A stretch of 36,744 nucleotides of DNA, from positions 1-36,744 of the forward strand of contig JAHFRU010000024.1 in assembly GCA_023266115.1 (NCBI GenBank). Reading direction: 5' to 3'. The notes under the pieces were generated by a model that worked only from the letters and a program-made list of their open reading frames with translations, made no database searches and was not told the DNA's origin. The translations under genes and the position numbers were made by a program. The DNA is from Gammaproteobacteria bacterium (lineage in GTDB: Bacteria > Pseudomonadota > Gammaproteobacteria > VBWC01). Positions 6,302 to 25,831 of the stretch are shown piece after piece; position 1 is the stretch's first letter, and each line of letters starts with the position of its first letter.

Positions 6302-8518
6302 TCAGAGGCCGAACCTTAGCGAGACCCGGATGTCGCGACCGGCGAGCGGCGCGAAGTCCTTGAGAAAGCTAGAATGACGGCGTGCAACCACGTCGAAGAT
6401 ATTGTTGGCGCTGAGCAAGAGCGAAGTCCTGCTGCTGTTGGCAAAGGGTTTGAGGCTCACACTGGCGTTGACCAAGGTGTAGCCGGGCGTAGTGGTCTCG
6501 AAGTCGGCGATACGGTCCTGCTTGAACACGCGCTCCACCTCGGTACGCGCGGTGAACTTGTCGCCCTGAGCCTCCAGACCGCCGAGTAGACGAAGCGGCG
6601 GGATGCGCGGCACGGGGCCGCGGTCGATGATGGTGGCCCGGACATAATCGCCGAGCAGGTCGGCGTTGATGCGCGTGCCGCCCACCTCGAACAGCTTGGC
6701 CGAAAGATCGCCTTCGATGCCCCAATAGCTCGCGCCGGCTTGCTGGTACTGAAAGCAGGGCAGGTCGACCTCGCGGCCTGACGGTGCGGCCGCAGCCTCG
6801 CATACAGCCTGGTCGACCTGCTGCTCCGAAATATAGTTGTTGAAGCGGTTGTAATAGGCGGATGCGTCGAAGCTCAGGCGCTCACCGTGAACGTGAAGCG
6901 TCGCCTCGATCCCATAGCTCCGTTCCAGCCGGAAGTCCGGGTTGCCCAGCTCATAAGCTTGTGTGCCGGCATGAGGCCCGTTTGCGAACAGCTCCTCGGC
7001 TGACGGCGCGCGCTCGGTATATGAACCGTTCAGGCCGATGCGGATCGCGTCGGTGACGCCGTAACCGACCCCCAGTGAGCCGGAGAACGCGCCATAGTTG
7101 CGCTTCCCGCCAAAGAATCTCGGGTCACTGCCCACGGTCTTGGCGGTCTGGTTGCTCCACTCGTAACGAGCGCCGGCCGCAGCATGAAACGGCCCCGCAT
7201 TATACTGCTGAAGCGTGAAGATGCCGGTCTGATTGGTTTCATTGCGGGGCAGGAAGGCTTCGACACCCTCGATGTTGAACGAACGGTTGAAATATTGGAC
7301 ACCGCTCGCGCCCTGCCATCCACCGCGATCTGCCTGAAGGAGTTCCAGTCGCCCCTCGGTGCCTTTGCTGTAGAACGCCGTGCCGATCTCGCCGGACGGT
7401 TCCAGCTCAAAATGGCGGTAGCTGGCATGGCCGGCGCGGATGCGGATGCGGTCGAGGAACCCGCCCCCGGTCTCGACTTCGCCGCGTAAGTCGACCCGGT
7501 CCTGCTTGACATCGAGCCGGGGCGACTCCTGCGCCTGGCCCACCTCGGTCGCATAGCGGATCGGCACGCCGTAGAGGCTGTCGTAACGACTGTAGCTTAC
7601 GCCAAGTTGGCCCGTGTCGGTGATGATCGACGCGCCGACGCCCGCCGTCCAGGTCTCGGCGGCGGTGTTGGGGAGCTTGCCTCGGATAGCAGCGGAGGCC
7701 GCGAAGTCGATCGGGTCCTCGCCTGGTGCCACGTCTTGCGGCAAGCCGACTTGCGAGAGCGCAGCAGCGCGTGCCGCTGGCGATAGCGCGTAGCCGCCGA
7801 TCCTGAGGTCGTCGGCTTTGAGATACGAGCCGTCGGCGTGGAGCACGAGGTAGGGACCGACCGCCACGTCAGCAGCGCCGGCGATCGAACGCTCGTTCGC
7901 GGCCGAGCCGTAGGTGGCGATGCCATTCAGCCGATAGCCGTTCTCGGGCCGGGTCCGCGGAATGCGCGTGTCGATGACGTTCACCACCCCGCCCACCGCA
8001 GACGAGCCGAACAGCAGCGCCGATGGCCCGCGCAGCACCTCAATGCGCTCGGCCAGGAGCGGGTCGATGACCACCGCATGATCGACGGAGGTATTGGACA
8101 GGTCGATCGCGCCAATACCGTCCGTCAGCACGCGGATGCGCTCGCCCTGGAAACCGCGCAGGATGGGCCGGGACGCCGAAGGGCCGAAGGAGGTCGCCGA
8201 CACGCCCGGCAGACGCGAGAGCGTCTCGCCAAGTGACGGGCGCAAGTCTCGGGTCAACGCCTCACCCTTCAGCACCGATGTGCCCTGAAGGACGTCGGTT
8301 TCGCTTTGCTGGAGTGGGGCGGTGACGATGATGTCGCGGTCCGAAGCGGGTATCTCCGGGCGGGATGGCCTAGGCGCAGTCGCCTGAGCGGTCGGCGCGT
8401 TCGCGGCATCGGTTTTGCTGCTCGGCATTGCGGTAGACGCGCTCTGCGCGACCGCGTTGCCGCTGATCGCAACAAGAGAAATCCCGATTAAAAGCACCGC
8501 CCTGGTTCTCATTCCCAT
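6302..8518 (-). CDS. znuD: TonB-dependent outer-membrane receptor, ZnuD-like
   Basis: This is a 738-residue outer-membrane receptor. A signal peptide (about residues 1-25, ending AVAQ) and a low-complexity linker precede the plug, which starts at RDIIVTAPLQQ. The plug contains LRGFQGERIRVLTDGIG and EVLRGPSALLFGSSAVGGVVNVID, both family hallmarks. The remainder is the 22-strand barrel. The wording of the plug, especially SNTSVDHAVVIDPL, fits the ZnuD-type zinc or haem receptor group. It is first in a leftward operon with a MerC-like protein and a Zur-like regulator, which supports zinc uptake. The gap to MerC is 91 bases. A possible regulator site is noted at 8552-8564. Confidence 0.85.
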   Translation of the reverse strand: MGMRTRAVLLIGISLVAISGNAVAQSASTAMPSSKTDAANAPTAQATAPRPSRPEIPASDRDIIVTAPLQQSETDVLQGTSVLKGEALTRDLRPSLGETLSRLPGVSATSFGPSASRPILRGFQGERIRVLTDGIGAIDLSNTSVDHAVVIDPLLAERIEVLRGPSALLFGSSAVGGVVNVIDTRIPRTRPENGYRLNGIATYGSAANERSIAGAADVAVGPYLVLHADGSYLKADDLRIGGYALSPAARAAALSQVGLPQDVAPGEDPIDFAASAAIRGKLPNTAAETWTAGVGASIITDTGQLGVSYSRYDSLYGVPIRYATEVGQAQESPRLDVKQDRVDLRGEVETGGGFLDRIRIRAGHASYRHFELEPSGEIGTAFYSKGTEGRLELLQADRGGWQGASGVQYFNRSFNIEGVEAFLPRNETNQTGIFTLQQYNAGPFHAAAGARYEWSNQTAKTVGSDPRFFGGKRNYGAFSGSLGVGYGVTDAIRIGLNGSYTERAPSAEELFANGPHAGTQAYELGNPDFRLERSYGIEATLHVHGERLSFDASAYYNRFNNYISEQQVDQAVCEAAAAPSGREVDLPCFQYQQAGASYWGIEGDLSAKLFEVGGTRINADLLGDYVRATIIDRGPVPRIPPLRLLGGLEAQGDKFTARTEVERVFKQDRIADFETTTPGYTLVNASVSLKPFANSSRTSLLLSANNIFDVVARRHSSFLKDFAPLAGRDIRVSLRFGL

Positions 8519-8879
8519 CGCCTTGCCTGAAGAATATTGCGTCCGCGCGGTGTTATACTGTTACGCGATTCGAGGCCGAGCAGCCGCGTTTCAAAGGCGG
8601 TTCAAGGGGAGGTGCATTTGATCTGGGCCCCACAACAGGCCGCTGGCTGAGAACCGGCCATGCTGCACGACGAAACCAGATGACTCTTTGTGTATAAGAG
8701 CCGCTTGCCACTTCTCTGCACGGTTTATGGACCATCCGCCGACGCCGACTTCGATCGAAATGCCGGCTGCTGCCACTCACTTCGATGGCTGCGAAACCGA
8801 CTGTGGCACTCCGGGAAACGGCAATGGCGGAAATGCCCCGCTTCTGCCGACACCGACTTACAAAACTGACATATTCACT
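8519..8879. other. Intergenic stretch upstream of the ZnuD-like gene
   Basis: I see no convincing gene. The stretch holds the receptor's promoter region and, at 8688-8700, a 13-base match (minus strand CTCTTATACACAA) to the outside end of IS50/Tn5-type elements. No transposase is present. This could be a relic or chance. Confidence 0.4.
8552..8564. promoter_or_regulatory. Possible Zur operator upstream of the ZnuD-like gene
   Basis: The sequence gttatactgttac lies about 35 bases upstream of the receptor start. It resembles the GTTAT-N3-ATAAC form expected of an alphaproteobacterial Zur box, but the second half is degenerate, so the palindrome is weak. On the minus strand it also contains TATAAC, which could be a -10 element. 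Confidence 0.25.
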
Positions 8880-8935
8880 GAGTTCATGTCGTACGCCCCA
8901 GCTTCAGGTTCCCGATAAGCGCAATGACTTGCAAG
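8880..8935 (-). pseudogene. Relic of a merC 3' end / zur start junction
   Basis: The bases 8883-8935 closely resemble 5811-5860, the place where the MerC gene ends and the Zur gene begins. On the minus strand the relic reads GNLKLGRTT-stop overlapping an ATGAAC start, just as the intact copy reads GNLKLGRAT-stop overlapping ATGAAC. Beyond this the reading frame breaks within a few codons. It is therefore a decayed second copy of the same operon junction, upstream of the intact operon. Confidence 0.65.
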
Positions 8936-8958
8936 GCCTTCTTGAGCCTCCGCAGATC

Positions 8959-9174
8959 TCACTTCTTCGCGCAGAATTTTTCACTTGATGAAATCCACGG
9001 GTAAATTAACACAAAGAAAGGCATCATGATAGCGGCCCGGATCGGTAACTCTCCTACCAATCCACTCCAGTGACCGGTATACCAACCATGAACAAATGTT
9101 CCTATCGCGACCGCGATAGCACCTGTTGCAAGTCCGGGTATCCACCTCAATCTATATTTCATAGATATTCTCAT
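8959..9174 (-). CDS. Small two-helix membrane protein, unknown
   Basis: This protein of about 71 residues has two strongly hydrophobic segments (IPGLATGAIAVAIGTFVHGW and AAIMMPFFVLIYPWI). It has a basic N-terminus (MKYRLRW) and a basic C-terminus, so both ends are probably cytoplasmic. I do not recognise the family. A second in-frame ATG at 9162 (MKYRLRW) has a weak GAGAA Shine-Dalgarno and may be the true start. The gene begins 16-29 bases after the stop of the membrane protein upstream, so the two are probably cotranscribed. Codon use is more AT-rich than in its neighbours, which hints at a different origin. Confidence 0.55.
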   Translation of the reverse strand: MRISMKYRLRWIPGLATGAIAVAIGTFVHGWYTGHWSGLVGELPIRAAIMMPFFVLIYPWISSSEKFCAKK

Positions 9175-9190
9175 TATTGTGAGATTTTTA

Positions 9191-10219
9191 TTAGATGAGT
9201 TGGTCCTTAAGCATCGGCGGCGACCGCTTGGCATCGTAAACAGGACCCGGCTCGCGACATGCCTGCGCGTGAGCGCGAATACGACGCTTATAGTGGTAGG
9301 TCTCGGGCGCGAGTGCGACGAATCCAAGTACGATACCCACGAGGACATGGGCCGCGACCGTGATACCTGTGACGAGTACGATCGCAGCAACGATCTCCAG
9401 ATTTTGGCCAACGAAAAGGGCAGCAACGCCCACGAGCGCGACGTCCTTGTTGGGGACTAGCGGAAGGCGCGACATCATCAGGCGGACGCTCGCCAGCAAT
9501 ATCCACCATCCTGCTGCGACGTCGGGAACAACGAGATGCCACATAAGCGCGGAGAGCGTCACCGTCGCCGCAATGCGCAGGAGATGGACGACGAAGATGC
9601 GGATCAGCACAGGACGACGAAGCGTGAACATTCGATGTCCGAATGCGGTGATACCGATCGACACGGCCATCACGAAAAACACAGACCCGACAATCGCGGT
9701 TCCGACGCTTCCGGTCCTCAACTCAAGGAACATGGGATAGGCGAGAGCGAGTACGGCGATCGTCGCCACATTGCCAGCAAGCGCGGACAGAATCGCGACA
9801 TCCTTTACGGCACCAAATGGCGACGCGACCATCTCAGCCCGGCGTTTTGCCCAAAGATAGAACTGCGTCTCTCCCATGTAGCCCAGGACAAGATTATTGG
9901 TCACCTGCTTGTGAAGCAACGGAAGCAGACCAACGACGGGCAAGCGCCATAGCCCCCGGAAGATCGCCCACTCGGACACCGGTGTAGCTAGGTAGGAAGC
10001 CGCAAACGCCAACCAGAACAGAGCGCTCGTCGGTACTAAGGTGGTGAGAGTTATGAAATCGATGGAGCGCAGCTGAAATGCAACGGCGGCAAGAATCCCT
10101 AGCGAGAACGCAAGGCTACCCCAACGGGTGAAGCCGGGCCGGACAACGCCCTGAAGCGTCCTGAGCGTGGCTGGCAGCGTACTCGGTTTGATGCGCAAGC
10201 CCAAAGGCCCGATATTCAT
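9191..10219 (-). CDS. Polytopic membrane protein, unknown function
   Basis: This protein of about 342 residues has roughly eight hydrophobic segments and a short basic C-terminal tail. A loop between helices 2 and 4 holds NLVLGYMGETQFYLWAKRR, the most distinctive conserved-looking stretch. The overall pattern loosely recalls the membrane region of lysylphosphatidylglycerol synthases (UPF0104-like), but I cannot confirm this. The frame is open to 10336. ATG codons at 10249 and 10219 are the realistic starts, and 10219 has GGGAC about 11 bases upstream. It runs leftward, apparently with the small membrane protein at 8959-9174. It is flanked by unrelated metal-uptake operons. Confidence 0.6.
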   Translation of the reverse strand: MNIGPLGLRIKPSTLPATLRTLQGVVRPGFTRWGSLAFSLGILAAVAFQLRSIDFITLTTLVPTSALFWLAFAASYLATPVSEWAIFRGLWRLPVVGLLPLLHKQVTNNLVLGYMGETQFYLWAKRRAEMVASPFGAVKDVAILSALAGNVATIAVLALAYPMFLELRTGSVGTAIVGSVFFVMAVSIGITAFGHRMFTLRRPVLIRIFVVHLLRIAATVTLSALMWHLVVPDVAAGWWILLASVRLMMSRLPLVPNKDVALVGVAALFVGQNLEIVAAIVLVTGITVAAHVLVGIVLGFVALAPETYHYKRRIRAHAQACREPGPVYDAKRSPPMLKDQLI

Positions 10220-10336
10220 GTTCGTTAAGTCCCGAAAATCGTAGCCCATTGTCACAGGCCGCGGACAATTCGTGTGGTTCGAACGCCGACACGGGGGTGG
10301 CATTGCGCGCAAATAGCGTTCCGCTAGGGGTCGCAT

Positions 10337-10566
10337 GGCTTGTCGGATAGAGTCACGACCATCATCGCCGCCACTGCTCCGATGCGATCGGCAACCCCCA
10401 GCTCAGACTGACACATTACCAACGCATGATTTGGCGCGCTGGGAGGCGTCCTTGCTCCCATCATCAATTTTCCCGGCCGCTCTGAAATAATGTCTATTGT
10501 CTGAAGACGCCGCGGCCGAACACATCCGCAGTCCGTTTGCAAAAAACGAGCGGACCTGCACGGCCT
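10337..10566. other. Intergenic stretch
   Basis: No gene is seen between the STN-TonB receptor's stop and the membrane protein upstream region. On the minus strand GTCCG and CGGAC bracket a T-rich stretch just after the receptor stop (about 10535-10560). This is not a standard terminator. Confidence 0.4.
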
Positions 10567-12903
10567 TCAAAAATCGCGAGATACCGAGATCGAGAAGGCG
10601 CGTGGGCGGGCGGGTGTGTACTGGCGTTCCGTGCGCACCGAAAAGGGATTGCCAAAGGCAAGCGTGTCGCCCCGCGCATTGAAGAGGTTCGTCACCGACA
10701 GGTCCACCACGAACGCTCCCCTGCGAGCCTCAAGCCCCGCCCCGAACTCGGCGAACCCGCCCATCCGCCGGTCGAGCCCAGGGTCCAGGCTCAGCCTAGA
10801 CCGTCCTAGGTAGCGACCGGTCACCGCGGGCGACACTCGCCAGGACCCTGCATCGATCGAATGTCGCATGTCGAAGTGGCCGGATACGTCAGGTACAACA
10901 GGAAGGCGCGGGTCACGCTCCAACTCTGCACCATCAATGCCGCGAACCAGCCGGGCGCGCTGGCCGGAGGCGCCCGCAACAAAGGACCATGCCGATGTCG
11001 GCCGCCACCGAACGGTCAGTTCGCCGCCCAGGATATTCGCGTCGCCAGCGTTACGCGTCGCCACAAGGCCGGAATTAAGAAGATAGTCCGACTGAACGTC
11101 CGACCAGATGGAGCTGAACGCGCCAACTTCAACCTGAAGCCTGCCCCCGTCCGAAGTGCGTCGAAATCCAGCTTCGAATGCGACCAACTGATCGGCATCG
11201 TAGCGGCCGGTTTCCACGTTGGTCGGATCAAGGCCCCCGGGCCGGAATGCGGACGCAACGCGAAAGTAGGCCAACGAGGCGGAGGAGGGCAACCATGACA
11301 GCGTCGCGCTGGGCGATACGCCCCATAAAGACTTGGACCGAACTTCGGTTCCGACATCGTCGTCGCGGTCCTCCTTGACGGTCGAGCGGAAAACGCGGAT
11401 GCCAAGGCCGAGACGAAGACCATCGATAAGGGGTCGGCTACCCTCGGCAAACATGGCTGTTTCGGTGACGCTTCTTGACGCGTCCAGCAAATCTGCGATC
11501 ATCGGGCTGATTTCCGATGCTCGGCCGCGAGCGCCGCTACGGGATGAGAGATAGGAAACGCCCAAAGCCCAAGGCGTTCGGCCGCTTTTGTTCGCAAGGC
11601 GGATTTCCTGGTCGAATACCTGATATGTGCGGGTTTCGGCATACCGCAGCGGCGCGGTCAGACCGAGGGACGAGGCCGCGCTGCTCGCGTCGTCAACCTT
11701 CAGCGTCCTCTGCGTTGCTAGGCTTGTAGAGACGGTCAGGGCATAAGGCCCAAGCTCACCTTGCAGGACGCCCGAGGTGAGCCAGACATTATTCGACCGT
11801 GGCTCCGGCGTCCGGTCTGCGCGTGTCAGCTCTTCCTTGTCGCGATCCACATATTTGCTGTCGAGCGCGCGGATGTTCTGACCGGCGCCAATGAGGTCAA
11901 AAGTCCACCCCTCGCTTGGGACAACGCGAAGCGACGCTCTGGTGCCGCGCACGACCGTTCGGTTGACGTCCGAGCGACCTCCAGCGTTGTTGATCCAGCC
12001 TGGCGCGACATCGACGTAGCCCACCAACCGCAAGGCGGCCTGATCCTGGCGCACGGGTAAGTTGACGACGCCCTCGACCGACGCGCCGACACCGTGACCC
12101 GGGAGGCCGGCGAGACGCTGACGGGAGCGACCGGCAAATTGGCCCAAATCGGGCGCAATGGTCATCACGCGGTAGACGCCGCCCAGTGCTCCCGTGCCGT
12201 AAAGCGGCCCCTGCGGTCCCTTCAGTACCTCGACCCGATCCACATCAACCATTCGGAAGTCGGGATCGGGCGCGTCGTAAGTGATCCGGGCCTCGTTCAG
12301 GTACACGCTCACCGGGGATTGTCCGAAGCCAATAAACGGACTGTCGGCTATGCCCCGCAAGAACAATCGGCTCGCACCTGGCCCGCCATTCGTAGCAATC
12401 AATCCCTGAACCTGGGTCGCCACCGCCGACGTGCCAGCGTCCGAGCCCGCGGCGGCGCTTCCATCCAGTACATGGACCGTGACCGGTCCCGGCACTTGCG
12501 AAAGCAACTCGCGCATCTTCCTGGCGGTGACGATGATGTCCGATGAAACGGTTGGATCTGCGCTGGCGGCTGTCGGGCCGGCGTTCGGGGCGGCGGGGGC
12601 AGCCGATATCCGAAAGGTCGCCGGTCCGACGCGGTGGGCCGAGAGGCCGGTGCCTGCCAAGAGTCGCGCGTAAGCGGCATCGATCGTCATCCGGCCTCGC
12701 AACGCGATCGCCCGGCGCTGTGGAAGCGGAGCATCGAGCGCGAACGATGTCTTCGTCTGAGTGGCGAGCGCGGCGAGCATCGTCTCAAGCGTACCAGCGG
12801 GGACGTCGATCGAAAGGACACGCTCCTGAGCCGCTGCCGGTCCGGCAACGCTAGTCGCCAGCGCCGCGGACGAGACGCACAGTGCTTCCTTCCACTCTCG
12901 CAT
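10567..12903 (-). CDS. TonB-dependent receptor with N-terminal signalling (STN) domain
   Basis: This is a 778-residue outer-membrane transducer of the FecA type. After a signal peptide ending PAAAQ, residues about 28-100 form the STN domain (VLSIDVPAGTLETMLAALA, then ALRGRMTIDAAYARLLAGTGL). That domain contacts FecR in the periplasm. The plug starts at SDIIVTARKM and includes RVEVLKGPQGPLYGTGALGG. The barrel ends in the terminal phenylalanine (SVSRDF) expected for outer-membrane insertion. Its start overlaps the fecR-like gene by 53 bases, and sigma factor, FecR and receptor form one leftward operon. The substrate is probably a ferric siderophore, but the sequence does not identify it. In the plug, LYGTGALGGVYRVMT departs from the usual VINV ending. 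Confidence 0.85.
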   Translation of the reverse strand: MREWKEALCVSSAALATSVAGPAAAQERVLSIDVPAGTLETMLAALATQTKTSFALDAPLPQRRAIALRGRMTIDAAYARLLAGTGLSAHRVGPATFRISAAPAAPNAGPTAASADPTVSSDIIVTARKMRELLSQVPGPVTVHVLDGSAAAGSDAGTSAVATQVQGLIATNGGPGASRLFLRGIADSPFIGFGQSPVSVYLNEARITYDAPDPDFRMVDVDRVEVLKGPQGPLYGTGALGGVYRVMTIAPDLGQFAGRSRQRLAGLPGHGVGASVEGVVNLPVRQDQAALRLVGYVDVAPGWINNAGGRSDVNRTVVRGTRASLRVVPSEGWTFDLIGAGQNIRALDSKYVDRDKEELTRADRTPEPRSNNVWLTSGVLQGELGPYALTVSTSLATQRTLKVDDASSAASSLGLTAPLRYAETRTYQVFDQEIRLANKSGRTPWALGVSYLSSRSGARGRASEISPMIADLLDASRSVTETAMFAEGSRPLIDGLRLGLGIRVFRSTVKEDRDDDVGTEVRSKSLWGVSPSATLSWLPSSASLAYFRVASAFRPGGLDPTNVETGRYDADQLVAFEAGFRRTSDGGRLQVEVGAFSSIWSDVQSDYLLNSGLVATRNAGDANILGGELTVRWRPTSAWSFVAGASGQRARLVRGIDGAELERDPRLPVVPDVSGHFDMRHSIDAGSWRVSPAVTGRYLGRSRLSLDPGLDRRMGGFAEFGAGLEARRGAFVVDLSVTNLFNARGDTLAFGNPFSVRTERQYTPARPRAFSISVSRDF

Positions 12904-13789
12904 CCAACCCCGTCAACTGCTTAAGCGTGTCGATGGCTGACGCGCCCGGTTCGATCGTGATGACGCCCGAGAAGCGCCTGTTGGCCAGGTCGCGGCGGAT
13001 CTCCACCCGCCGTCCTGCATAGCGCGACACATCAGCGACGACCAGCCCGAGCGGCGCGCGGTTATACACGAGCCGACCCCGCCGCCAGCTCCCGACGGCC
13101 TCGGTCGCCTGGGCGGTGATCTCCACCACACCGCGTCCCGGGTCTGCGAAAAGCGCCTTGCCCGCGTCTAGCACGACGGGCTGAGCGAACCGAACCGAGC
13201 TCACCGAAACAGTCCCGGCCTGAACCGCCACCCTGAGAATACCGTTCTCCAGAGAGACATCGAACCGGGTACCGACATCTTTGACGAGGAAGTCGGCCGC
13301 CTCGACAGTGAAGGGCGAAGCAGGATCGTGGCGCACGTCAAAGAACGCGGTCCCGGTCAGCCGCACGTGACGGGCATTGTCGACATTGGCAACCAATGTC
13401 GACCCAGGCGCAAGTGTCGCTTTCGCGCCGCTTGGCAGCGTGACGGACCTCATTTCGCTAGCGGCAGTGCGATAGACCGGCGAGGCGGTCGGCGCGTCAA
13501 AGCGCAGAAGCGGCAGTGATACGATGGCCACGGCCGAGGCTGCAACGGCGCCCGCGACGATGCGCCAGCGCAGCCATTTGCGTGCGCCTTTGTTTTTGAC
13601 CGCGCGCGGAAGAAGAGCGGGCCGTAGGCGATCGATCTCTTCATCAAGCAGCGCAATCTCGTTATAACACGCACGATGCTCAGGATTCGCAGCTAGCCAG
13701 CGAGTAAAGCCATCCCAGTCAAAGTCGTCGCGATGCTGTCCCTGATGCCACAGCGCGGCCTGCTCGTAGATGTCCTCTGTCGTGGTCAT
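12851..13789 (-). CDS. fecR: FecR-family anti-sigma / signal transducer
   Basis: This 312-residue protein has FecR layout. An N-terminal DUF4880-like cytoplasmic part contains HRDDFDWDGFTRWLAANPEH. One membrane helix follows at about residues 73-95 (after KWLRWR), and then a periplasmic FecR domain (SVTLPSGAKATLAPGS, VRLTGTAFFDVRHD, FTVEAADFLVKDVGTRFDV). The C-terminus, GRLVYNRAPLGLVVADVSRY, is a typical FecR end. It should hold the ECF sigma factor inactive and transmit the receptor's signal. I choose ATG 13789 (MTTTEDIYEQ); the frame is open further upstream, but only with a TTG at 13852. It follows the sigma gene by 74 bases and overlaps the receptor gene. Confidence 0.85.
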   Translation of the reverse strand: MTTTEDIYEQAALWHQGQHRDDFDWDGFTRWLAANPEHRACYNEIALLDEEIDRLRPALLPRAVKNKGARKWLRWRIVAGAVAASAVAIVSLPLLRFDAPTASPVYRTAASEMRSVTLPSGAKATLAPGSTLVANVDNARHVRLTGTAFFDVRHDPASPFTVEAADFLVKDVGTRFDVSLENGILRVAVQAGTVSVSSVRFAQPVVLDAGKALFADPGRGVVEITAQATEAVGSWRRGRLVYNRAPLGLVVADVSRYAGRRVEIRRDLANRRFSGVITIEPGASAIDTLKQLTGLDARVEGSTVRLVRGAGD

Positions 13790-13863
13790 TTCGCATCGCC
13801 GCCGACGGAGCACGCCGGCAGTCTCCTGGTTCGAACGTAAGACGCCGAGCAAGCCATCCCGCC

Positions 13864-14430
13864 TCAGTCCCTCAGCGATCGCCGAAGAAAAGTCATCGCG
13901 GTTGCCATGTGCTTCTCCACGCCGCTGCGCGTAATGCCGAGCTCTCGAGCCACATCCGCGTGCGGCAACCCATCGAGCTTGTGAAGCCGGAACACTCGGC
14001 CGGCTGCGGGCGGCAGCGCCGCGATGGCGGTCGCCAGACGTGCCGAGCGCTGTTGGTCCTCCATCGCCTGTTCGGCGCCCGGGCGCGGATCGGCTGTTTC
14101 GCCTGGGCTGGCGGCACCATATTCCGCAACCGACCAGTCACGGTCGCGCGTTGAGCGGCGGCGTCTTTCCCGCATCCGATCCAATACAAGGTTCTGTGCC
14201 GCGCGATAGAGATACGCGCGGCCATTTGCGACGGGGCTGCCGCCGGCCGCATGAACTCGCAGCCAGAGCTCCTGAAGCACGTCTTCCGCTTCGGCCGGAT
14301 CGCCTGTGCGCGTGATCAGAAAGCGGAGAAGCTCCGGACGGTACGCTGCGTACAAGGCGGCAAGACCGGATTGCGGGGCGTGGACGAGCTTCTCCCGTTT
14401 ACCTTTTTCTCCAGGGGCGTTCGGAGGCAA
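13864..14430 (-). CDS. fecI: ECF sigma factor, FecI-like
   Basis: This protein of about 188 residues has sigma region 2 (LRFLITRTGDPAEAEDVLQELWLRV, AYLYRAAQNLVLDRMR) and sigma region 4 (LPPAAGRVFRLHKLDGLPHADVARELGITRSGVEKHM), as in the FecI group of iron-responsive ECF factors. It should direct transcription of the receptor operon after a signal through FecR. The start is uncertain: no ATG precedes region 2, and the TTG at 14430 is the best in-frame candidate but lacks a clear Shine-Dalgarno. It is the first gene of the leftward sigma > FecR > receptor operon and diverges from the MlaA-like gene. Confidence 0.85.
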   Translation of the reverse strand: MPPNAPGEKGKREKLVHAPQSGLAALYAAYRPELLRFLITRTGDPAEAEDVLQELWLRVHAAGGSPVANGRAYLYRAAQNLVLDRMRERRRRSTRDRDWSVAEYGAASPGETADPRPGAEQAMEDQQRSARLATAIAALPPAAGRVFRLHKLDGLPHADVARELGITRSGVEKHMATAMTFLRRSLRD

Positions 14431-14556
14431 AAAATCCGTCTCGGCTTTTCGGCAGGTGCGGTTGCGTCCTGCGGCGGCGTCTCATTCGCAGAGGATGGCC
14501 CAAGGGCGGTGGACTTGCAACGCCCAGGTGAGCTCTTCCTGTCGAAAGGTTATGAG

Positions 14557-15504
14557 TTGGGCACTGCTATCGTGGCTGCGGCACTGTTTCTGCCTCCTCC
14601 AGTAATGCTGGATCAGATGGCGATCGTGCCGGTGCTTTTTCAAGAAACGGCACCTGTCGGCCATGTGCCGCAAGAGGTACCGGCTATAGGCTCCGAAGGC
14701 GAAGCAACGTCGGCAAACCCCGTTGAGGCTCCCACGCCACCGTCGTCACCGGAGGAAGGTTTGCCGATAGATATTGGCGCCGAGCAGCAGACGGTCGAAC
14801 ACAATGACATTGTGGTCACTGCTCGACCGGGTCATGCGCCGGGAGATCCGTTGCAAGCTGTCAACGCACAGGCATTTGCAATCACCCAGACCGTTGACAA
14901 GGCGGTCGTCGCGCCGGTGGCGATGACCTATCAACGCGCCTTGCCTGGCCCGGTTCGTGGGGCAATCCGCAATTTCTTCAATAATCTGGCTGAACCGGTT
15001 GCATTCCTCAATTTCCTCGTTCAGCTCAAACCCGGCAAGGCGGCCGAGACGGCCGGACGGTTTGCGATCAACACAACGGTCGGCGTCGCCGGGATGATCG
15101 ATGTCGCCCGGAAAAAACCGTTCAAACTACCTCGTAGATCGAACGGCTTTGCCAACACACTGGGCTATTACGGCGTAAAGCCCGGCCCCTTTCTGTTCCT
15201 TCCGCTGATCGGCCCTACGACCGTCAGAGACCTCATCGGCCTTGGTATCGACCGAATGGTTCTTCCGTCGGCGTTCGGCCAGCCGTTCAACCAGCCCACC
15301 TACACGGTTCCAGCAAGCATCGTTGGGTCGCTTGATTACCGGGTCCAGTTCGACTCACAACTTCGCGAGTTGAAAGACACGCCGGACCCGTATGCTGCTT
15401 CGCGCAGGAACTATCTGGAAGGCCGCCAAGCGGAGATTGACGCTCTGCATGGGCGAACGTCACCGCAACCGATCACGCGCCGTACGCTCCCGGTTTTCCC
15501 ATGA
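14557..15504 (+). CDS. mlaA: MlaA/VacJ-family outer-membrane lipid-asymmetry protein
   Basis: Residues from about 95 onward match MlaA: DPLQAVNAQAFAITQTVDKA, RGAIRNFFNNLAEPVAFLN, LQLKPGKAAETAGRFAINT, GVAGMIDVA, and the channel-forming GFANTLGYYGVKPGPFLFLP. MlaA removes phospholipids from the outer leaflet and passes them to MlaC. The 90-residue N-terminal part is acidic and proline-rich and ends in DIVVTARPG, a run like the plug start of sphingomonad TonB receptors. The start is uncertain: TTG 14557 has AAAGG upstream and gives a signal-like hydrophobic stretch, while ATG 14605 is shorter. I see no lipobox cysteine, unlike enterobacterial MlaA. Its stop overlaps the start of the next gene, so it is coupled to a phospholipid-synthesis enzyme. 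Confidence 0.8.
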   Translation: MGTAIVAAALFLPPPVMLDQMAIVPVLFQETAPVGHVPQEVPAIGSEGEATSANPVEAPTPPSSPEEGLPIDIGAEQQTVEHNDIVVTARPGHAPGDPLQAVNAQAFAITQTVDKAVVAPVAMTYQRALPGPVRGAIRNFFNNLAEPVAFLNFLVQLKPGKAAETAGRFAINTTVGVAGMIDVARKKPFKLPRRSNGFANTLGYYGVKPGPFLFLPLIGPTTVRDLIGLGIDRMVLPSAFGQPFNQPTYTVPASIVGSLDYRVQFDSQLRELKDTPDPYAASRRNYLEGRQAEIDALHGRTSPQPITRRTLPVFP

Positions 15505-16187
15505 TGCATGGCTCTCCTGCTCGTTCCGAACTACGCCGCATACAAGAGAATTGGCTTGCCAAGAGCGAACGACGGGTTCTCCAATGGCTTTGCGCCCGAA
15601 TGCCTGCTTCCATCACGCCGGATCGCCTGACCGCCATCGGCATGATTGGAGCCACAATGGTTTTTGGCGGCTACATTGCGAGCAATCTTGGCCACCTTTG
15701 GTTACTTTTGTCCCTCGCCGGCTATGTCGTTCAATGGTTTGGGGACTCAATGGACGGAAGCCTCGCGCGGTATCGTAAGATCGAGCGCCCCTCCTACGGA
15801 TACTTCATCGATCACAGTTGTGACGGGATGGCAAATCTGATGATCGTGGCCGGGATCGGCCTTTCCCCGTACGTGACCATGAACATCGCCATGGTCGCGC
15901 TGGCCGGTTACCTCTTGATGTCGGTTCACACATTCCTCGCGGCGCGAGTGATGGGCGAATTGCGACTGTCCTATCTCGCAATGGGTCCTACCGAGCTTCG
16001 CCTTTTCCTGATCCTGTTGACGATTGCGATGATGGCAATCGAGCCCGGCGGAGACCGTATCTGGACGATACCGGCACTAGACGCTCTGGTAGGATTCATC
16101 GGCGCCGCGCTGATTTGCCTATTTATAGTGCAAACCTTGCTAGTGGCTAGAACACTTGCTCGTGTCGATTCAAATGCGGATCGTTGA
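15501..16187 (+). CDS. CDP-alcohol phosphatidyltransferase family protein
   Basis: This 228-residue membrane enzyme carries the family signature D82-x2-D85-G86-x2-A89-R90-x9-G100-x3-D104-x3-D108, which binds the metal and the CDP moiety. Five or six hydrophobic helices surround it. The family transfers a phosphatidyl or similar group from a CDP-alcohol to a second alcohol (phosphatidylserine, glycerophosphate, inositol phosphate or choline). The acceptor cannot be told from the sequence. The helix after the motif holds MVALAGYLLMSVHTFLAARV. The start ATG overlaps the MlaA-like stop, and the 3' end overlaps the glycosyltransferase start by 14 bases, so the three genes are one transcript. Confidence 0.85.
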   Translation: MMHGSPARSELRRIQENWLAKSERRVLQWLCARMPASITPDRLTAIGMIGATMVFGGYIASNLGHLWLLLSLAGYVVQWFGDSMDGSLARYRKIERPSYGYFIDHSCDGMANLMIVAGIGLSPYVTMNIAMVALAGYLLMSVHTFLAARVMGELRLSYLAMGPTELRLFLILLTIAMMAIEPGGDRIWTIPALDALVGFIGAALICLFIVQTLLVARTLARVDSNADR

Positions 16188-17346
16188 TGTCAATGAGTAC
16201 TACTGCCCGACAGGAGGTGGGGTTCGAACGTACATCGACCGGAAAATGCGACTCCTGGCTGATCTTGGTCACGAACTTATTGTCATCGCACCCGGCCATG
16301 AGTATCGTCTCGAACACCGCCCCGGCGGGGGGCGCGTTTTCTGGGTAGCCGCACCCCGCCTTCCGTTCGACCGAAGCTACGGGATGTTCTGGGATGGGGC
16401 TCCGGTAACGGCACTGCTCGATGAACTAAATCCCGACGTCGTCGAGACAAGCTCGCCGTTTCGCCCCGCATGGATCGTCGCCAACTGGAGAGCGCCCGCG
16501 GCTAAAGTCTTCTTCGCACACAATGACCATATGACTGCCTACGCGCAGCGTTGGGTGGGACGACTGGCCTCGCGGCAAAAAGTTGAGAGTTGGTTTGGGT
16601 GGTACACCCGCTACCTTGCTCACTTCCTCGACAGGTTCGATGCCTTTGTCACGAATGGCAGGACGCTCGACCGTTGGTATTCCGGCCGCGGACTTCAGGT
16701 CGATGCACCGCTTCCGCTCGGCGTGGAAGGCGGCGTTTTCGCCCCGCATCTTCGAGATGAACAACTACGGGCAGCGCTACTGGGCGAGTGCCACCTTCCG
16801 CCTTGTGCGCATTTACTTATCGGGGTCGGGAGGCATCACCCGGAGAAGCGCTGGCCGATGGTTATTGATGCGGTTGAACAAGCCGGCCAATCGGCACCTA
16901 TTGGGCTCATCCTCCTTGGCGACGGCGTCGATCGACCCAAAATCTTCAGCCGCGTCGCTGGCAATCCCCACATCCGGCTGTTTAAGCCGATCTTCGAGCG
17001 TGAGCGATTTGCATCCGTGTTGGCCAGCGCAGATGCGCTCGTGCACGGATCGGATACCGAACCTTTTGGTCTCGTTGCCTTAGAAGCCATCGCGTCATGG
17101 CTGCCGTTGATTGTTCCTAACGAGGGAGGGTCAGCGGAATTTGCAGCACCAAGCCATTCCGAATCCTATAATGCGCGTGACGCGAAATCCTGCGCAGCGG
17201 CGATCCTGCGCCTGTTGGCGCGGGATTCCGTACAGTTACGTTCGGCAACCCTGGATGCAGCAGGAAGAGTTCGTACGGATCTCGATCACCTAATTGATCT
17301 ACTGGATTATTATAATCAGCTACTCTTACGACGATCGATTTCATGA
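16174..17346 (+). CDS. Glycosyltransferase, GT4/GT-B fold
   Basis: This is a 390-residue protein. The N-terminal Rossmann half starts MRIVDVNEYYCPTGGGVRTY, a glycine-rich acceptor-side loop typical of GT4. The C-terminal half has LLIGVGRHHPEKRWPMVIDAV, the nucleotide-sugar loop LILLGDGVDRP, and the EX7E-type motif HGSDTEPFGLVALEAIA. No membrane helix is evident, so it is cytosolic or membrane-associated. I choose the ATG at 16174; the frame opens 18 bases earlier. Overlap with the phosphatidyltransferase gene suggests that it glycosylates that enzyme's lipid product or a related lipid. The sugar and acceptor are unknown. Confidence 0.85.
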   Translation: MRIVDVNEYYCPTGGGVRTYIDRKMRLLADLGHELIVIAPGHEYRLEHRPGGGRVFWVAAPRLPFDRSYGMFWDGAPVTALLDELNPDVVETSSPFRPAWIVANWRAPAAKVFFAHNDHMTAYAQRWVGRLASRQKVESWFGWYTRYLAHFLDRFDAFVTNGRTLDRWYSGRGLQVDAPLPLGVEGGVFAPHLRDEQLRAALLGECHLPPCAHLLIGVGRHHPEKRWPMVIDAVEQAGQSAPIGLILLGDGVDRPKIFSRVAGNPHIRLFKPIFERERFASVLASADALVHGSDTEPFGLVALEAIASWLPLIVPNEGGSAEFAAPSHSESYNARDAKSCAAAILRLLARDSVQLRSATLDAAGRVRTDLDHLIDLLDYYNQLLLRRSIS

Positions 17347-17385
17347 TAAATTTCGCGAAAAAAAATGAAGCAAGGGTTGTAGTCA

Positions 17386-17859
17386 TTGACGTATCTTACG
17401 GAAAACATTCCCTGGTGGCTTGATATAGCGCGCATCCTACTGGCAGGGTTGCTGGGTGCCATAATTGGCTGGCAACGTGAGCACCACGGCAGGGAAGCCG
17501 GAATCCGAACCTACATGGCTGCTTCGCTAGGAGCCTGCGCCTTCGGACTTGTGTCGAACGCCATCGGGGACCAAGGTCGCATCTCTGCGGGAATTGTTAC
17601 TGGAGTAGGATTCATTGGCGCCGGCATCATCCTGCGCGACGCTGGGCGCGTGACGGGGCTCACAACGGCAGCTACGCTCTGGGCGTCTGCAGCGGTCGGG
17701 TTAAGCGCCGCGTACGGGATCTATCATCTGGCTGTCATAACCGCTCTGATGCTTCTTCTGATCCTTGAGCTGCCTCGCATGCCTGGGTGGACGCGGGTTT
17801 CGCACCGAGCCCGCTTGCATGTACACCATTCGGATTCCGACGACGAACCTACTCGATGA
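17386..17859 (+). CDS. MgtC/SapB-family membrane protein
   Basis: This 157-residue protein has four to five hydrophobic helices and the MgtC signatures LLGAIIGWQREHHGREAGIRTY, VTGVGFIGAGIIL and GLTTAATLWASAAVGL. MgtC proteins are tied to growth in low magnesium and to regulation of ATP synthase and phosphate uptake. Short versions lacking the C-terminal ACT-like domain, as here, are common. The start is a TTG at 17386 with AAGGG about 11 bases upstream; the ATG at 17365 is followed by a stop in its frame. It lies 39 bases after the glycosyltransferase, so it may be the fourth gene of that operon. Confidence 0.85.
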   Translation: MTYLTENIPWWLDIARILLAGLLGAIIGWQREHHGREAGIRTYMAASLGACAFGLVSNAIGDQGRISAGIVTGVGFIGAGIILRDAGRVTGLTTAATLWASAAVGLSAAYGIYHLAVITALMLLLILELPRMPGWTRVSHRARLHVHHSDSDDEPTR

Positions 17860-18025
17860 ACATCACCTTGCACGCCGAAGCAGGCCAATCGGCTCGGAAT
17901 CTAGCGCCGTGGAAGTTGGAATTGACGTCCCTTTCTCGGGATTTTCGCTTCGATGCAGCTTTTGAACGGCCAAATGAGCCTGCGGCTCAATCCGTGCTAT
18001 GATACGCTTGTACTGGGGATGTTCG
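17860..18025. promoter_or_regulatory. Upstream region of the cupredoxin gene
   Basis: This gap holds a small hairpin, TGAGCC-tgc-GGCTCA (17975-17989), followed by TATGAT at 17998-18003, which could be the -10 of the cupredoxin gene. The -35 is poor, so an activator or alternative sigma factor may be needed. Confidence 0.35.
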
Positions 18026-18421
18026 ATGCGCTCGCTAAGCCTCGCTGTTTGCGGCCTTCTTCTCGCGGGGCCTGGCTTTGCTCAATCGCCGAACTGGTTG
18101 AACGCCCGGACGATCGAAATCGACATGAAGAATTTCGCTTTCGTTCCAGCCACGATCACGCTTCAACGCGGTGTTCCCTACCGCTTGCGCTTTGTTAACA
18201 CGGCAGGGGGCGGCCACAATTTTGTCGCCAAGGCCTTTTTCGAGCAAGCCAGTATTGCCCCTGCCAGCCGGTCGACGATCAACAAGGGTGAGGTCGATCT
18301 GGGAGGCGGAGAAAGCGGGGACGTGCGCCTGGTTGTCAACCGGATCGGAACCTACGACGTGCATTGTTCGCACTTCATGCACTCGATTTTCGGCATGAAA
18401 GGCAAGATCGTCGTCCGGTGA
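18026..18421 (+). CDS. Exported cupredoxin (blue-copper-like) protein
   Basis: This 131-residue protein has a signal peptide ending GPGFAQ (residue 20). The mature part has the plastocyanin-like fold pattern, with a first copper-ligand histidine at H64 (GGGHNF) and a C-terminal ligand loop C114-x4-H119-x4-M124. That gives the His-Cys-His-Met set of a type 1 copper site. It is probably a periplasmic electron carrier or copper binder. The frame is open nine residues further upstream, but MRSLSLAV is the natural signal start. It lies upstream of a siderophore receptor on the same strand with a 247-base gap, so a shared transcript is not certain. Confidence 0.8.
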   Translation: MRSLSLAVCGLLLAGPGFAQSPNWLNARTIEIDMKNFAFVPATITLQRGVPYRLRFVNTAGGGHNFVAKAFFEQASIAPASRSTINKGEVDLGGGESGDVRLVVNRIGTYDVHCSHFMHSIFGMKGKIVVR

Positions 18422-18668
18422 GCGTCACTGGCTCGGCTCTCTTCCATGTCATGGCTGAGGACGTTCGGCGTAATGCAACGGCAAAGCCAACTCAGGCTCT
18501 GATAAGTGATCTCGTCGGGCTTCGTAACATTGCCGTAGTCCGTTTCGCTGGCCTCATATTTTAGAGAGCAAGTCAACGGGCCCGACAGCGACCACCCCGA
18601 AGGGCTATTGCGACGCACTCTCAAATCACCTATTGCGTTGGTGAGAGAGATTCGCAAAAGGGTCAACG
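18422..18668. promoter_or_regulatory. Leader of the siderophore receptor gene
   Basis: No gene is seen. About 50 bases before the receptor start, ctctcaaatcacc and ggtgagagag (18619-18651) form an imperfect inverted repeat around tattgcgtt. It could be an operator or a leader hairpin. I see no good match to a 19-base Fur box. Confidence 0.35.
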
Positions 18669-20813
18669 GTGAGAAATCTTGGTATTGGAACTGCACTCGG
18701 CTTCGGGCTGCTCACCGTCCCGGCAATGGCTCAAGACCAGTTCCTGCCGGGACCCGGCAGCACCTCGCAAACGATCATCGTGACCGGCGTCCGCGACGGC
18801 TATCAGATCGATGCGACCAGCACCGCCACGCGCACACCGACCGAGCTCAACGATGTCCCCCAAGCGGTCTCGATCATCACGGAAACGCAGATCGACGACC
18901 AGGCGATGCGCTCTATTGCCGATGTACTACGCTATGTCCCCGGCGCCGTAATCTCCCAAGGTGAGGGACACCGCGATCAGATCATCCTGCGCGGGAACAG
19001 CAGCACCGCAGACTTCTTCGTCGATGGCTTGCGGGACGACGTGCAATATTATCGCGGCCTCTACAATGCAGAGAGGATCGAGGTTCTGAAAGGTCCCAAC
19101 GCGATGATCTTCGGGCGCGGCGGCGGCGGGGGCGTAATCAACCGCGTCACCAAGCGCCCTGTCGCCAACGCCTTCATCAGCGGCAGCGGTTCGGCGGACA
19201 CATATGGCGCATGGTATGTCGACGCCGACATCAGTCAGCCACTCAGCGAGTCCGTCTCCACCCGGATGAACGCCGTTTACGAGGAGTTCCGAAACAATCG
19301 CGACTTCTATGACGGGCGCCGGGTTGCGATCAACCCGACCGTCGCGCTCTCGCTCGGCGGTGCGACTCGGATCGATCTGGGCTTCGAATATAACAGCGAC
19401 AAGCGAACGATCGACCGAGGCGTCCCCTCGGCCGTTCAGGGCTCGCTGACGAGCCCGTCACGCCCGCTCACCGGCGCCCGCGACACCTTCTTCGGTGTGC
19501 CGGGATTCAACGTCAGCGATTTCGAGGCCAAGGTCCTGAATGGGCGCGTCGAGCACCGCTTCAGCGACAATCTGACCCTGACCAGTCGGGTCCTGTATGG
19601 TGATTACGACAAGCTCTATCGGAACGCCTTTCCGGTCACCCCGGTCACGTCGCGCGGCGGCGTCCAGAGCGTCGGCCTCGAAGCGTATAGCGATCCCACG
19701 ACACGCAAGAACCTGCTCAACCAGAACGACCTTGTTTGGAGGGTCACCACTGGACCCGTCCGCCACGTGCTGCTCGCTGGCTTCGAAATTAGCGACCAGC
19801 GCACGCGCAACCAGCGGATCAACGGCTTTTTCGGGGGTGGTGATATCGTCAACGGGGGGCGGCGCGTCTTTGTCGGGTTGGCCGACCCGATCACGGTGCC
19901 GCCGGTCACGCTGCGCACCACTCCCAATACCGGCTACCGGTCAATCCGCACGAACGCCGACGCCGCCGCCTTCTATGTGCAGGACCAGATCTCGATCGGC
20001 GACCATGTCGATCTGATCGGCGGCGTTCGCCGCGACCGCTTCACGCTTAACGTCGACGACCTGGTTGCCGGGCAGAGCTATCGCCGGACCGACACGCTTT
20101 GGTCTCCCCGAGTGGGCGTGGTGCTCAAGCCGGTGCAACCTGTCTCGATATACGCCAGCTATAGCCGGTCCTTCCTGCCGCAGTCGGGGGATCAATTCTC
20201 ATCGCTCGATGTCACCAGCGCCGCGCTGGAGCCGGAGAGGTTCGACAATTACGAGCTTGGCCTCAAATGGGATATCCGCCCGACGCTGAACCTGACCGCC
20301 GCCATCTACCAGCTTGACCGCACCAACACCCGCGCGGCCGACCCCAATGACCCCGCACGGACGGTGCTCACGGGCGCGCAGCGCAGCAAAGGGCTCGAAC
20401 TCGGCCTTAGCGGCGCGATCACACCCCAGTGGCAGATCAGCGCGGGCTATGCGCTGCAGGACGCGACAATTCGCAAAACGACGAGTGCCGCCCCGGCCGG
20501 GCGCGAGGTTCCGCTGGTTCCAAAACAACAGGCTTCGCTCTGGACGCGTTACGACCTCACCCCACGCTTGGGGGCCGGCGCCGGTGTCTACCACCAGTCG
20601 AAAAGCTTCACGTCCATCAGCAACACCGCCATCCTGCCCGCCTTCACCCGCGTCGATGCCGCCGCATTCTTCAAGCTCACCCCCCAGATCGAGGCGCAAA
20701 TCAACGTCGAGAATCTGCTTAACAGCGATTATTTCTCGTCCGCCTACAACGACAACAACATCATGCCCGGCGCGCCGACGACGGTGCGCGCAACGGTTAG
20801 AATGAGATTATAA
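18669..20813 (+). CDS. TonB-dependent siderophore receptor
   Basis: This 714-residue outer-membrane receptor starts at a GTG with AAGGG about 8 bases upstream. A short signal peptide ends PAMAQ. The plug has TIIVTGVRDGYQ, TRTPTELNDVPQAVSIIT, LRYVPGAVISQGEGHRDQI, LRGNSSTADFFVDGLRDD and RIEVLKGPNAMIFGRGGGGG, the wording of the catecholate or hydroxamate siderophore receptor group (FhuE/Fiu/FoxA type). No STN domain is present, so unlike the receptor at 10567-12903 it is not a signalling transducer. It ends in RMRL rather than in an aromatic residue. The substrate cannot be determined. It faces a convergent hypothetical gene. Confidence 0.85.
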   Translation: MRNLGIGTALGFGLLTVPAMAQDQFLPGPGSTSQTIIVTGVRDGYQIDATSTATRTPTELNDVPQAVSIITETQIDDQAMRSIADVLRYVPGAVISQGEGHRDQIILRGNSSTADFFVDGLRDDVQYYRGLYNAERIEVLKGPNAMIFGRGGGGGVINRVTKRPVANAFISGSGSADTYGAWYVDADISQPLSESVSTRMNAVYEEFRNNRDFYDGRRVAINPTVALSLGGATRIDLGFEYNSDKRTIDRGVPSAVQGSLTSPSRPLTGARDTFFGVPGFNVSDFEAKVLNGRVEHRFSDNLTLTSRVLYGDYDKLYRNAFPVTPVTSRGGVQSVGLEAYSDPTTRKNLLNQNDLVWRVTTGPVRHVLLAGFEISDQRTRNQRINGFFGGGDIVNGGRRVFVGLADPITVPPVTLRTTPNTGYRSIRTNADAAAFYVQDQISIGDHVDLIGGVRRDRFTLNVDDLVAGQSYRRTDTLWSPRVGVVLKPVQPVSIYASYSRSFLPQSGDQFSSLDVTSAALEPERFDNYELGLKWDIRPTLNLTAAIYQLDRTNTRAADPNDPARTVLTGAQRSKGLELGLSGAITPQWQISAGYALQDATIRKTTSAAPAGREVPLVPKQQASLWTRYDLTPRLGAGAGVYHQSKSFTSISNTAILPAFTRVDAAAFFKLTPQIEAQINVENLLNSDYFSSAYNDNNIMPGAPTTVRATVRMRL

Positions 20814-24182: not shown

Positions 24183-25085
24183 ATGAAGATCATTATGCTG
24201 GGGGCAGCCGCCGGCGGTGGCTTCCCCCAGTGGAATTCCAATGCCGGTGGGTGCCGTCGCGCCCGCAGCGGCGACCCCCTAGCGAAATCGCGAACCCAGA
24301 CCAGCGTCGCGGTTAGCCGTGACGGGGAGCGCTGGTTCGTGCTCAACGCATCGCCCGATCTGCGCCAGCAGATCAACGACACGCCGGCGCTGCACCCGCG
24401 CGATGGCCTTCGGCATACGCCGATCGCGGGCGTCGTGCTTACCGGCGGCGATGTGGATGTAGTCGCGGGGCTTCTGACCCTACGCGAGCGCCAGCCCTTC
24501 ACGCTCCACGCTTCGCACCGGATTCATGACGTGCTCGACGCCAATCCGATCTTCGAGGTGCTCGCGCGCGATGTCGTGACGCGCAGCGTCGAGCAACTCG
24601 GCGTGCCTTTCACGCTGGAGCCAGGATTGACCGCGCGCTTCTTCGCCGTGCCAGGGAAAGTGCCACTCTATCTCGAAAGCGGCAGCGAACCGCCGCCCAT
24701 CGTCGTCGATGATACGACCGTGGGGCTAGAAATCGTCGAGGGCGACAAGCGCATGCTCTTCATTCCGGGTTGCGCGGCCATGCCCGAGGATCTGCGCGCC
24801 CAACTCGTCGGCGTCGATATCGTCTTCTTCGACGGCACGCTCTGGCGCGATGATGAGATGGTGGCCGCCGGCTTCGGTGGCAAGACAGGCCAGCGCATGG
24901 GACATATGAGCCTCTCGGGACCGCAAGGCACGATCGAGGCCTTCCGCACCGTTCCGGTGAGGCGCAAGGTCATCATTCACATGAACAACAGCAACCCCGT
25001 TCTTCTCGCCGACAGCCCGGAGCGGGCGGAAGCGGAAACCGCCGGATGGACCATCGGGGAAGACGGCATGGAATTCATGCTATGA
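24183..25085 (+). CDS. pqqB: PqqB, metallo-beta-lactamase-fold PQQ biosynthesis protein
   Basis: This 300-residue protein, the usual PqqB length, has the typical opening MKIIMLGAAAGGGFPQWN. It also has ASPDLRQQI, LTGGDVDVVAGLLTLRE, FFDGTLWRDDEMVAAGFGGKTG, GHMSLSG and the C-terminal HMNNSNP. It belongs to the metallo-beta-lactamase fold and is thought to hydroxylate the tyrosine of the PqqA-derived intermediate. It is cytosolic. The stop overlaps the pqqC start (ATGA), and pqqA is ten bases upstream. Nothing suggests truncation. Confidence 0.95.
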   Translation: MKIIMLGAAAGGGFPQWNSNAGGCRRARSGDPLAKSRTQTSVAVSRDGERWFVLNASPDLRQQINDTPALHPRDGLRHTPIAGVVLTGGDVDVVAGLLTLRERQPFTLHASHRIHDVLDANPIFEVLARDVVTRSVEQLGVPFTLEPGLTARFFAVPGKVPLYLESGSEPPPIVVDDTTVGLEIVEGDKRMLFIPGCAAMPEDLRAQLVGVDIVFFDGTLWRDDEMVAAGFGGKTGQRMGHMSLSGPQGTIEAFRTVPVRRKVIIHMNNSNPVLLADSPERAEAETAGWTIGEDGMEFML

Positions 25086-25831
25086 CGGAAACGGCCGCCC
25101 CCCGATTGCTGAGCGCCGATGAGTTGGAGGCCGTGATGCGCCAGATCGGCGGCGAGCGATACCATATCCACCATCCCTTCCACCGCCTGCTCCATGACGG
25201 CAAGCTCGACCCGGCGCAGGTCCAGGCATGGGCGCTCAACCGCTATTATTACCAAGCTAGCATCCCGGCGAAGGACGCGACGCTGATGGCGCGCCTGCCC
25301 ACCGCCGAGATGCGCCGCGAATGGCGCCGGCGGATCGAGGATCATGACGGCGATGGCGACAAGCCCGGCGGCATCGAACGTTGGCTGAAGCTGGCCGAAG
25401 GGGTGGGACTCGACCGCGCCCTGGTCGAGAGCGCCGCCCAAATCCTGCCCGAGACGCGCTTCGCCGTGGATGCCTATGTGCACTTCGTTCGCGACAGGAC
25501 GCTGCTCGAAGCCATCGCGTCCTCGCTGACCGAGCTGTTCTCGCCGACCATCATCGCCGAGCGAGTCTCCGGCATGCTCACCAACTACGACTGGATCACC
25601 GAAGAGACGCTCGCCTATTTTACCCCGCGCCTCACGCAAGCGCCGCAGGACAGCAAGTGGGCGCTGACCTATGTCAAGCAGCATGCCAATACGATCGAGA
25701 AGCAGCAGGCGGTGCTCGCCGCGCTGCGCTTCAAATGCGACGTCCTGTGGTGCCAGCTCGACGGCCTCTATCTCGCCTATGTCTCGCCAGGCATGATTCC
25801 GCCTGGCGCCTTTGTTCCGGGGGAGAGCTGA
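25082..25831 (+). CDS. pqqC: PqqC, pyrroloquinoline-quinone synthase
   Basis: This 249-residue protein catalyses the last step, ring closure and eight-electron oxidation to PQQ, without a metal or cofactor. Family markers are RYHIHHPFHRLLHDGKL, VQAWALNRYYYQASIPAKDA, IEDHDGDGDKPGGIERWL, ELFSPTIIAERVSGML and YVKQHANT. The opening MTETAAPRLLSADELEAVMR fits the family. The start overlaps the pqqB stop and the stop overlaps pqqD, so all are coupled. The length is normal. Confidence 0.95.
   Translation: MTETAAPRLLSADELEAVMRQIGGERYHIHHPFHRLLHDGKLDPAQVQAWALNRYYYQASIPAKDATLMARLPTAEMRREWRRRIEDHDGDGDKPGGIERWLKLAEGVGLDRALVESAAQILPETRFAVDAYVHFVRDRTLLEAIASSLTELFSPTIIAERVSGMLTNYDWITEETLAYFTPRLTQAPQDSKWALTYVKQHANTIEKQQAVLAALRFKCDVLWCQLDGLYLAYVSPGMIPPGAFVPGES

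Follow-up and report, generated by a model that had tools for sequence, protein, structure and literature searches.

A possible phospholipid-glycosylating gene set with MlaA-like, phosphatidyltransferase and GpgS-like genes on a sphingomonad-type plasmid contig

Results

In the present study, we analysed a stretch of DNA of 36,744 nucleotides (the window; positions 1 to 36,744, forward strand, of contig JAHFRU010000024.1 in GenBank assembly GCA_023266115.1, filed under Gammaproteobacteria), in which genes for an MlaA-like protein, a CDP-alcohol phosphatidyltransferase, a family 4 glycosyltransferase (GT4) and an MgtC-type membrane protein follow one another at 14557-17859. We tentatively read them, at somewhat less than even chances, as part of a mobile cassette, linked to FecI/FecR-type regulation (FecIR), that makes a phospholipid, adds a sugar to it and redistributes it. 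Judged from its gene content, the set probably lets a plasmid alter the membrane lipids of its host. The gene families, catalytic motifs, fold type, neighbourhoods and mobility were computed; the substrates, product, flipping, direction of transport and regulation were inferred.

An earlier sequence-only reading of this DNA had described four overlapping or closely spaced genes, and their families, spacing and order were borne out, the same order being kept on a plasmid of Sphingomonas koreensis. All four lie on the plus strand. The gene of the MlaA-like (VacJ) protein (14557-15504) shares four bases, ATGA at 15501-15504, with that of the phosphatidyltransferase (15501-16187), inside which the GT4 gene (16174-17346) begins with ATG at 16174, giving an overlap of 14 bases. 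After a gap of 39 bases the MgtC/SapB gene (17386-17859) starts with TTG at 17386. These distances were read directly from the DNA, and the overlaps suggest co-translation. The start of the MlaA-like gene is uncertain (TTG at 14557, or ATG at 14605, the equivalent of the start annotated on the S. koreensis plasmid). For the phosphatidyltransferase, the start annotated on that plasmid is later, equivalent to 15600, and is probably wrong because it removes the conserved N-terminus. The set extends past these four genes: a periplasmic-type cupredoxin (17999-18421; PF13473, PF00127) and a TonB-dependent receptor of siderophore type (18669-20813; TIGR01783, 316.6 bits) follow on the same strand, and a divergent set lies upstream. 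No Rfam family was found in the window.

The GT4 gives an indication of the chemistry. Its best NCBIfam model is NF053787 (N-acetylglucosaminyl phosphatidylglycerol synthase, GpgS) with 161.5 bits, the next model reaching 49, and the alignment covers nearly the whole protein, which also matches PF13692 and PF13439 and carries the motif EPFGLVALE. GpgS was characterised in 2025 in Pseudomonas aeruginosa together with the deacetylase GpgD and the predicted flippase GpgF; it adds N-acetylglucosamine (GlcNAc) to phosphatidylglycerol (PG), and when present alone in E. coli it suffices for the formation of GlcNAc-PG (PMC12713373). The GT4 of the window probably works in the manner of GpgS-type phospholipid glycosylation. 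Its sphingomonad relatives (39-66% identity) fall in the tree into two clades with support of 100/100, and the window protein belongs to clade A. Clade B members lie in a cluster of a GpgD-like deacetylase, a second glycosyltransferase, an unannotated membrane protein, DUF2141 and the GT4, often with sigma factor, FecR and TonB receptor genes beside it. The deacetylase matches the GpgD model NF053788 (E 2e-35), and its gene stands beside most clade B relatives. It was found in 11 of the 14 genomes with a GT4 and in none of the six without, counts that come from related genomes and do not amount to 20 independent events. Because Leaf33 and SP166 carry both clades and a single deacetylase, which lies beside the clade B copy, the product of clade A is probably different or non-deacetylated; one clade A copy, on a plasmid of S. 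parapaucimobilis, is an exception with an adjoining deacetylase. The earlier suggestion that the set may make an unusual glycophospholipid has thus gained support from the nearness of the GT4 to GpgS and from the GlcNAc-PG-deacetylase-like gene beside its sphingomonad relatives.

The phosphatidyltransferase is of the six-helix type. It meets the family score of PF01066 (E 5e-6, above the cut-off) and has the signature D(x)2DG(x)2AR(x)8-9G(x)3D(x)3D, all eight residues being present. They are also invariant in the tight sphingomonad family to which it belongs (37 sequences, 56-76% identity). In the AlphaFold2 model, a predicted fold with a mean predicted local distance difference test score (pLDDT) of 83.7, there are six long transmembrane helices and a juxtamembrane helix. 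The structural neighbours of the model are PIP synthase (Z 17.5), cholinephosphotransferase (16.6), and DIPP synthase and AF2299 (15.3), with PGP synthase (Z 10.7) and PS synthase (Z 7.8) more distant. Since soluble acceptors are the rule among prokaryotic six-helix members (PMC4634129), CDP-diacylglycerol and a soluble alcohol are the predicted substrates. As for the inositol-phosphate arginines of RsPIPS, R166 may match R153, and for R191 there is no invariant arginine early in the last helix; this mapping was made by eye at 17% identity. PgsA, PssA and Pcs were considered as subtypes and are not favoured, as no such model matched at E 0.1. Overall, the enzyme resembles the class I CDP-alcohol phosphotransferases (PIP synthase; CEPT1/CHPT1) in its eight-residue signature, its six-helix model and Z values up to 17.5, but it matches no named subtype by sequence and is restricted to sphingomonads within the sample.

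The divergent half, which the earlier reading had missed, is encoded on the minus strand and comprises an extracytoplasmic function (ECF) sigma factor of FecI type (13864-14430; PF04542, PF08281), FecR (12851-13852; PF04773), a TonB-dependent receptor with a probable STN signalling domain (10567-12903; PF00593, PF07715) and a polytopic membrane protein (9191-10249). Judged by gene content, it matches the sphingomonad cluster with the GpgD-like deacetylase and GpgS-like GT4. The sigma factor and FecR match their families; the STN domain (PF07660, E 1.3e-5) falls just below its cut-off, with 25.3 bits against 28.4. In this order the trio resembles FecI-FecR-FecA signalling, but it is divergent from lipid genes and not from an iron transporter. 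Relatives of the sigma factor, FecR and receptor occur at 5, 6 and 6 of 15 GT4 loci, versus 0, 0 and 2 of 60 background loci (about 1 Mb in total). The membrane protein belongs to an unannotated family, with 45% identity to a yanoikuyae relative, that is present at all 15 GT4 loci and at none of the 60 background loci, the former having been picked for the GT4 and not for the membrane protein. This family, with no Pfam, NCBIfam or PDB match, is a candidate flippase. In nearly all sphingomonad loci examined, a member of it adjoins the GpgS-like GT4. In the tree the window protein has a long branch and does not group with the partners of clade A; the window therefore looks like a mosaic, its GT4 being of clade A and its membrane protein and regulators clade-B-like.

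The mobility of the set is apparent from its copies. NZ_CP018821, a conjugative plasmid of 311 kb from S. koreensis ABOJV, has the identical four-gene order at 99.7% identity, and every reading frame there is intact with no internal stops. About 15.6 kb of the window (5208-20806) is common to this plasmid, so the unit exceeds the four-gene set. Near-identical copies occur in Qipengyuania pacifica and Erythrobacter sp. HI0063, on draft contigs that begin inside the MlaA or phosphatidyltransferase gene and keep the gene order in their visible part. On a diverged plasmid, pSAMIE_5 of Sphingobium amiense, relatives of the MlaA-like protein (71%) and the phosphatidyltransferase (54%) adjoin. They are followed by a relative of the 18669-20813 TonB receptor (42%) and preceded, at a distance of 2.3 kb, by one of MgtC (78%), and all four genes share a strand. 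The literature searched on MlaA/VacJ with a CDP-alcohol phosphatidyltransferase, or with sphingomonad copper plasmids, held no description of this set, and the viral contigs searched gave no matches.

Discussion

The proposed mechanism would run as follows. The phosphatidyltransferase would join CDP-diacylglycerol to a soluble alcohol to give a phospholipid, and the GpgS-like GT4 would add a sugar, perhaps N-acetylhexosamine, to the head group of that lipid or of ordinary PG, working from the cytoplasmic side. The unannotated membrane protein, at the place that the flippase GpgF has in P. aeruginosa, may then transfer the lipid across the inner membrane, and the MlaA-like protein may govern how much phospholipid is kept in the outer leaflet. 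The divergent FecI/FecR/TonB-receptor trio probably turns the set on in a metal-related setting, to which the cupredoxin, MerC and the copper genes present on the S. koreensis plasmid would belong.

The MlaA-like protein has a complete domain (PF04333, E 1.6e-57) and in this respect is like the Mla pathway. It has a long N-terminal extension and lacks any cysteine, and therefore a lipobox cysteine, so by its sequence it is not a classical lipoprotein. Further differences from the pathway are that no MlaC is encoded in the window, the matches of the assembly lying all on other contigs, and that the gene is in an operon with lipid-synthesis genes. Elsewhere, on an S. parapaucimobilis plasmid, a 58% relative is divergent from sigma-FecR-receptor genes, separated from them by a family-2 glycosyltransferase and followed by heavy-metal efflux genes; other plasmid-borne relatives have unrelated neighbourhoods. 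Only this member of the set bears on the earlier suggestion that the lipid is placed in the outer membrane. The MgtC protein has the membrane domain only (PF02308, E 1.6e-31, 109.6 bits); it is 157 residues long, the domain ends at 129, and the C-terminal soluble domain of virulence MgtC is absent.

Several results weigh against the reading of a phospholipid-modifying cassette. In E. coli MlaA is established to act in the retrograde direction, taking phospholipid out of the outer leaflet, and not in placement. The score of the GT4 is far below the curated cut-off of NF053787, 480 bits, and does not make it a GpgS. GpgD has no match in the window, nor in Q. pacifica or HI0063. Because GpgD is absent and the GT4 score is under the cut-off, the set lies outside GpgSDF. 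The membrane protein has no Pfam match, hence none to PF03706 (UPF0104; GpgF), one profile comparison with a PF03706 protein was empty, and its single-sequence fold model reached a pLDDT of only 53 and is unusable. Finally, the GT4 is absent from the MlaA-phosphatidyltransferase locus of pSAMIE_5, and some 60 other sphingomonad phosphatidyltransferase loci are nearly all orphans with no GT4 nearby. The expectation that the three genes would stay together thus held for the MlaA-like and phosphatidyltransferase genes, on pSAMIE_5, and failed for the GT4, which has its own conserved cluster elsewhere. Overall, the sequence-only reading was partly supported: its guess on the GT4 was better founded than sequence alone could tell, and a strict three-gene pathway was not established.

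Since pSAMIE_5 has the MlaA-phosphatidyltransferase-MgtC-receptor set without the GT4, this looks like the older association, with the GT4 as an optional member. The same locus favours a different explanation, possible though by no means probable, in which there is no single pathway: the genes would be independent envelope-fitness cargo, an older cassette of MlaA, phosphatidyltransferase, MgtC and TonB receptor into which a GT4 was inserted later, acting alone, for example on host PG. That the GT4 has other partners elsewhere and that the clade of the window's membrane protein differs from that of its GT4 fit this explanation as well. Against it stand the gene overlaps and a second neighbourhood of phosphatidyltransferase and GT4, the clear exception among the orphan loci, in MAG12 (L065), where the phosphatidyltransferase lies 0.6 kb from a GpgS-like GT4 and a deacetylase.

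We consider it unlikely that the phosphatidyltransferase is CEPT-like and transfers a phospho-alcohol from a CDP-alcohol to diacylglycerol or ceramide. The sequence-profile search of the PDB did return CEPT1 and CHPT1 as its sole matches, but the enzyme has six helices and not ten, the soluble-acceptor rule for prokaryotic six-helix members (PMC4634129) would apply to it, and its fold is equally close to PIP synthase. Because this possibility concerns the substrate only and is compatible with any of the other readings, the probabilities of the alternatives overlap. It is more improbable still that the GT4 acts on a non-phospholipid (polysaccharide, carotenoid or sphingolipid) with the phosphatidyltransferase unrelated to it: the GT4 family covers diverse functions, the score is low for a GpgS, and DUF2141 genes, neighbours of related GT4s, also lie beside crtG in sphingomonads (PMC5989583), but the GpgS match stands far ahead of all others and covers nearly the full length, the relatives pair with the deacetylase-like gene, and there is no DUF2141 relative in the window and no carotenoid gene among the window reading frames scanned.

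With the phospholipid-modifying cassette as our preferred reading, the nearest described system is GpgSDF, which carries out glucosaminyl-PG (GlcN-PG) synthesis in P. aeruginosa (PMC12713373). The two are alike in the GT4 nearest to GpgS, a polytopic membrane protein in the cluster and surrounding phospholipid genes. They differ in that the window set has no GpgD, a membrane protein not recognisably GpgF and a GT4 far under the equivalog cut-off, and that it adds a phosphatidyltransferase, MlaA and MgtC, is plasmid-borne and is linked to FecIR. A bolder version, which we regard as doubtful, is a self-contained, plasmid-transferable pathway with a new glycosylated phosphatidyl-alcohol, a new flippase family, a non-lipidated MlaA that adjusts the place of the lipid in the outer membrane, and FecIR/TonB surface signalling. 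Sphingomonads are known for an unusual outer membrane. Sugar-modified phospholipids change membrane charge and have been proposed to protect against cationic antimicrobials, and it was not until 2025 that the genes for one such lipid, GlcN-PG, were identified (PMC12713373). If the preferred reading is true, conjugative plasmids carry such lipid chemistry from one sphingomonad to another alongside metal-resistance genes, GpgS-like chemistry extends to sphingomonads, and the unannotated membrane-protein family gains a testable role as a lipid flippase.

By its content the contig looks like a sphingomonad plasmid, because it carries a RepA replication gene and 5.7 kb that are 100% identical to a plasmid of Rhizorhabdus wittichii RW1. 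The chromosomal remainder of the assembly looks gammaproteobacterial from its gene order (uvrC-pgsA and mlaE-mlaD-mlaC on other contigs); no 16S gene was found in the assembly. Either the contig was mis-binned or the plasmid crossed classes, so tests on this assembly reveal little of the true host. For the same reason, as the bin seems non-sphingomonad, the search of its own order (two genomes) and class, which found no relatives of the GT4 or the phosphatidyltransferase, is uninformative about sphingomonads.

Some further features of the plasmid region were recorded. The shared island contains a MerC mercury-transport gene (5812-6264), which on the S. koreensis plasmid adjoins a Fur-family regulator gene, and a further TonB-dependent receptor (6302-8518, minus strand; PF00593). 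The TonB receptor at 18669-20813 has 20 to 71 synonymous differences between plasmid copies, far above the four operon genes and the cupredoxin in those copies that were comparable base for base, a pattern that recombination of the receptor or a more recent spread of the operon would give. Extra differences in the GT4 copies of Q. pacifica and HI0063 were rejected, since they arise from comparing, without gaps, sequences that differ in length by one codon. In Q. pacifica and Erythrobacter alike, the copies cease to match at base 23091, and just past it a stretch matches IS6100-bearing plasmids. Farther on, at 24183-29519, the plasmid carries genes resembling those of pyrroloquinoline quinone synthesis (PqqB-like, PF12706; PqqC-type, PF03070; radical SAM/SPASM), together with a hydrolase and a transporter of the major facilitator superfamily.

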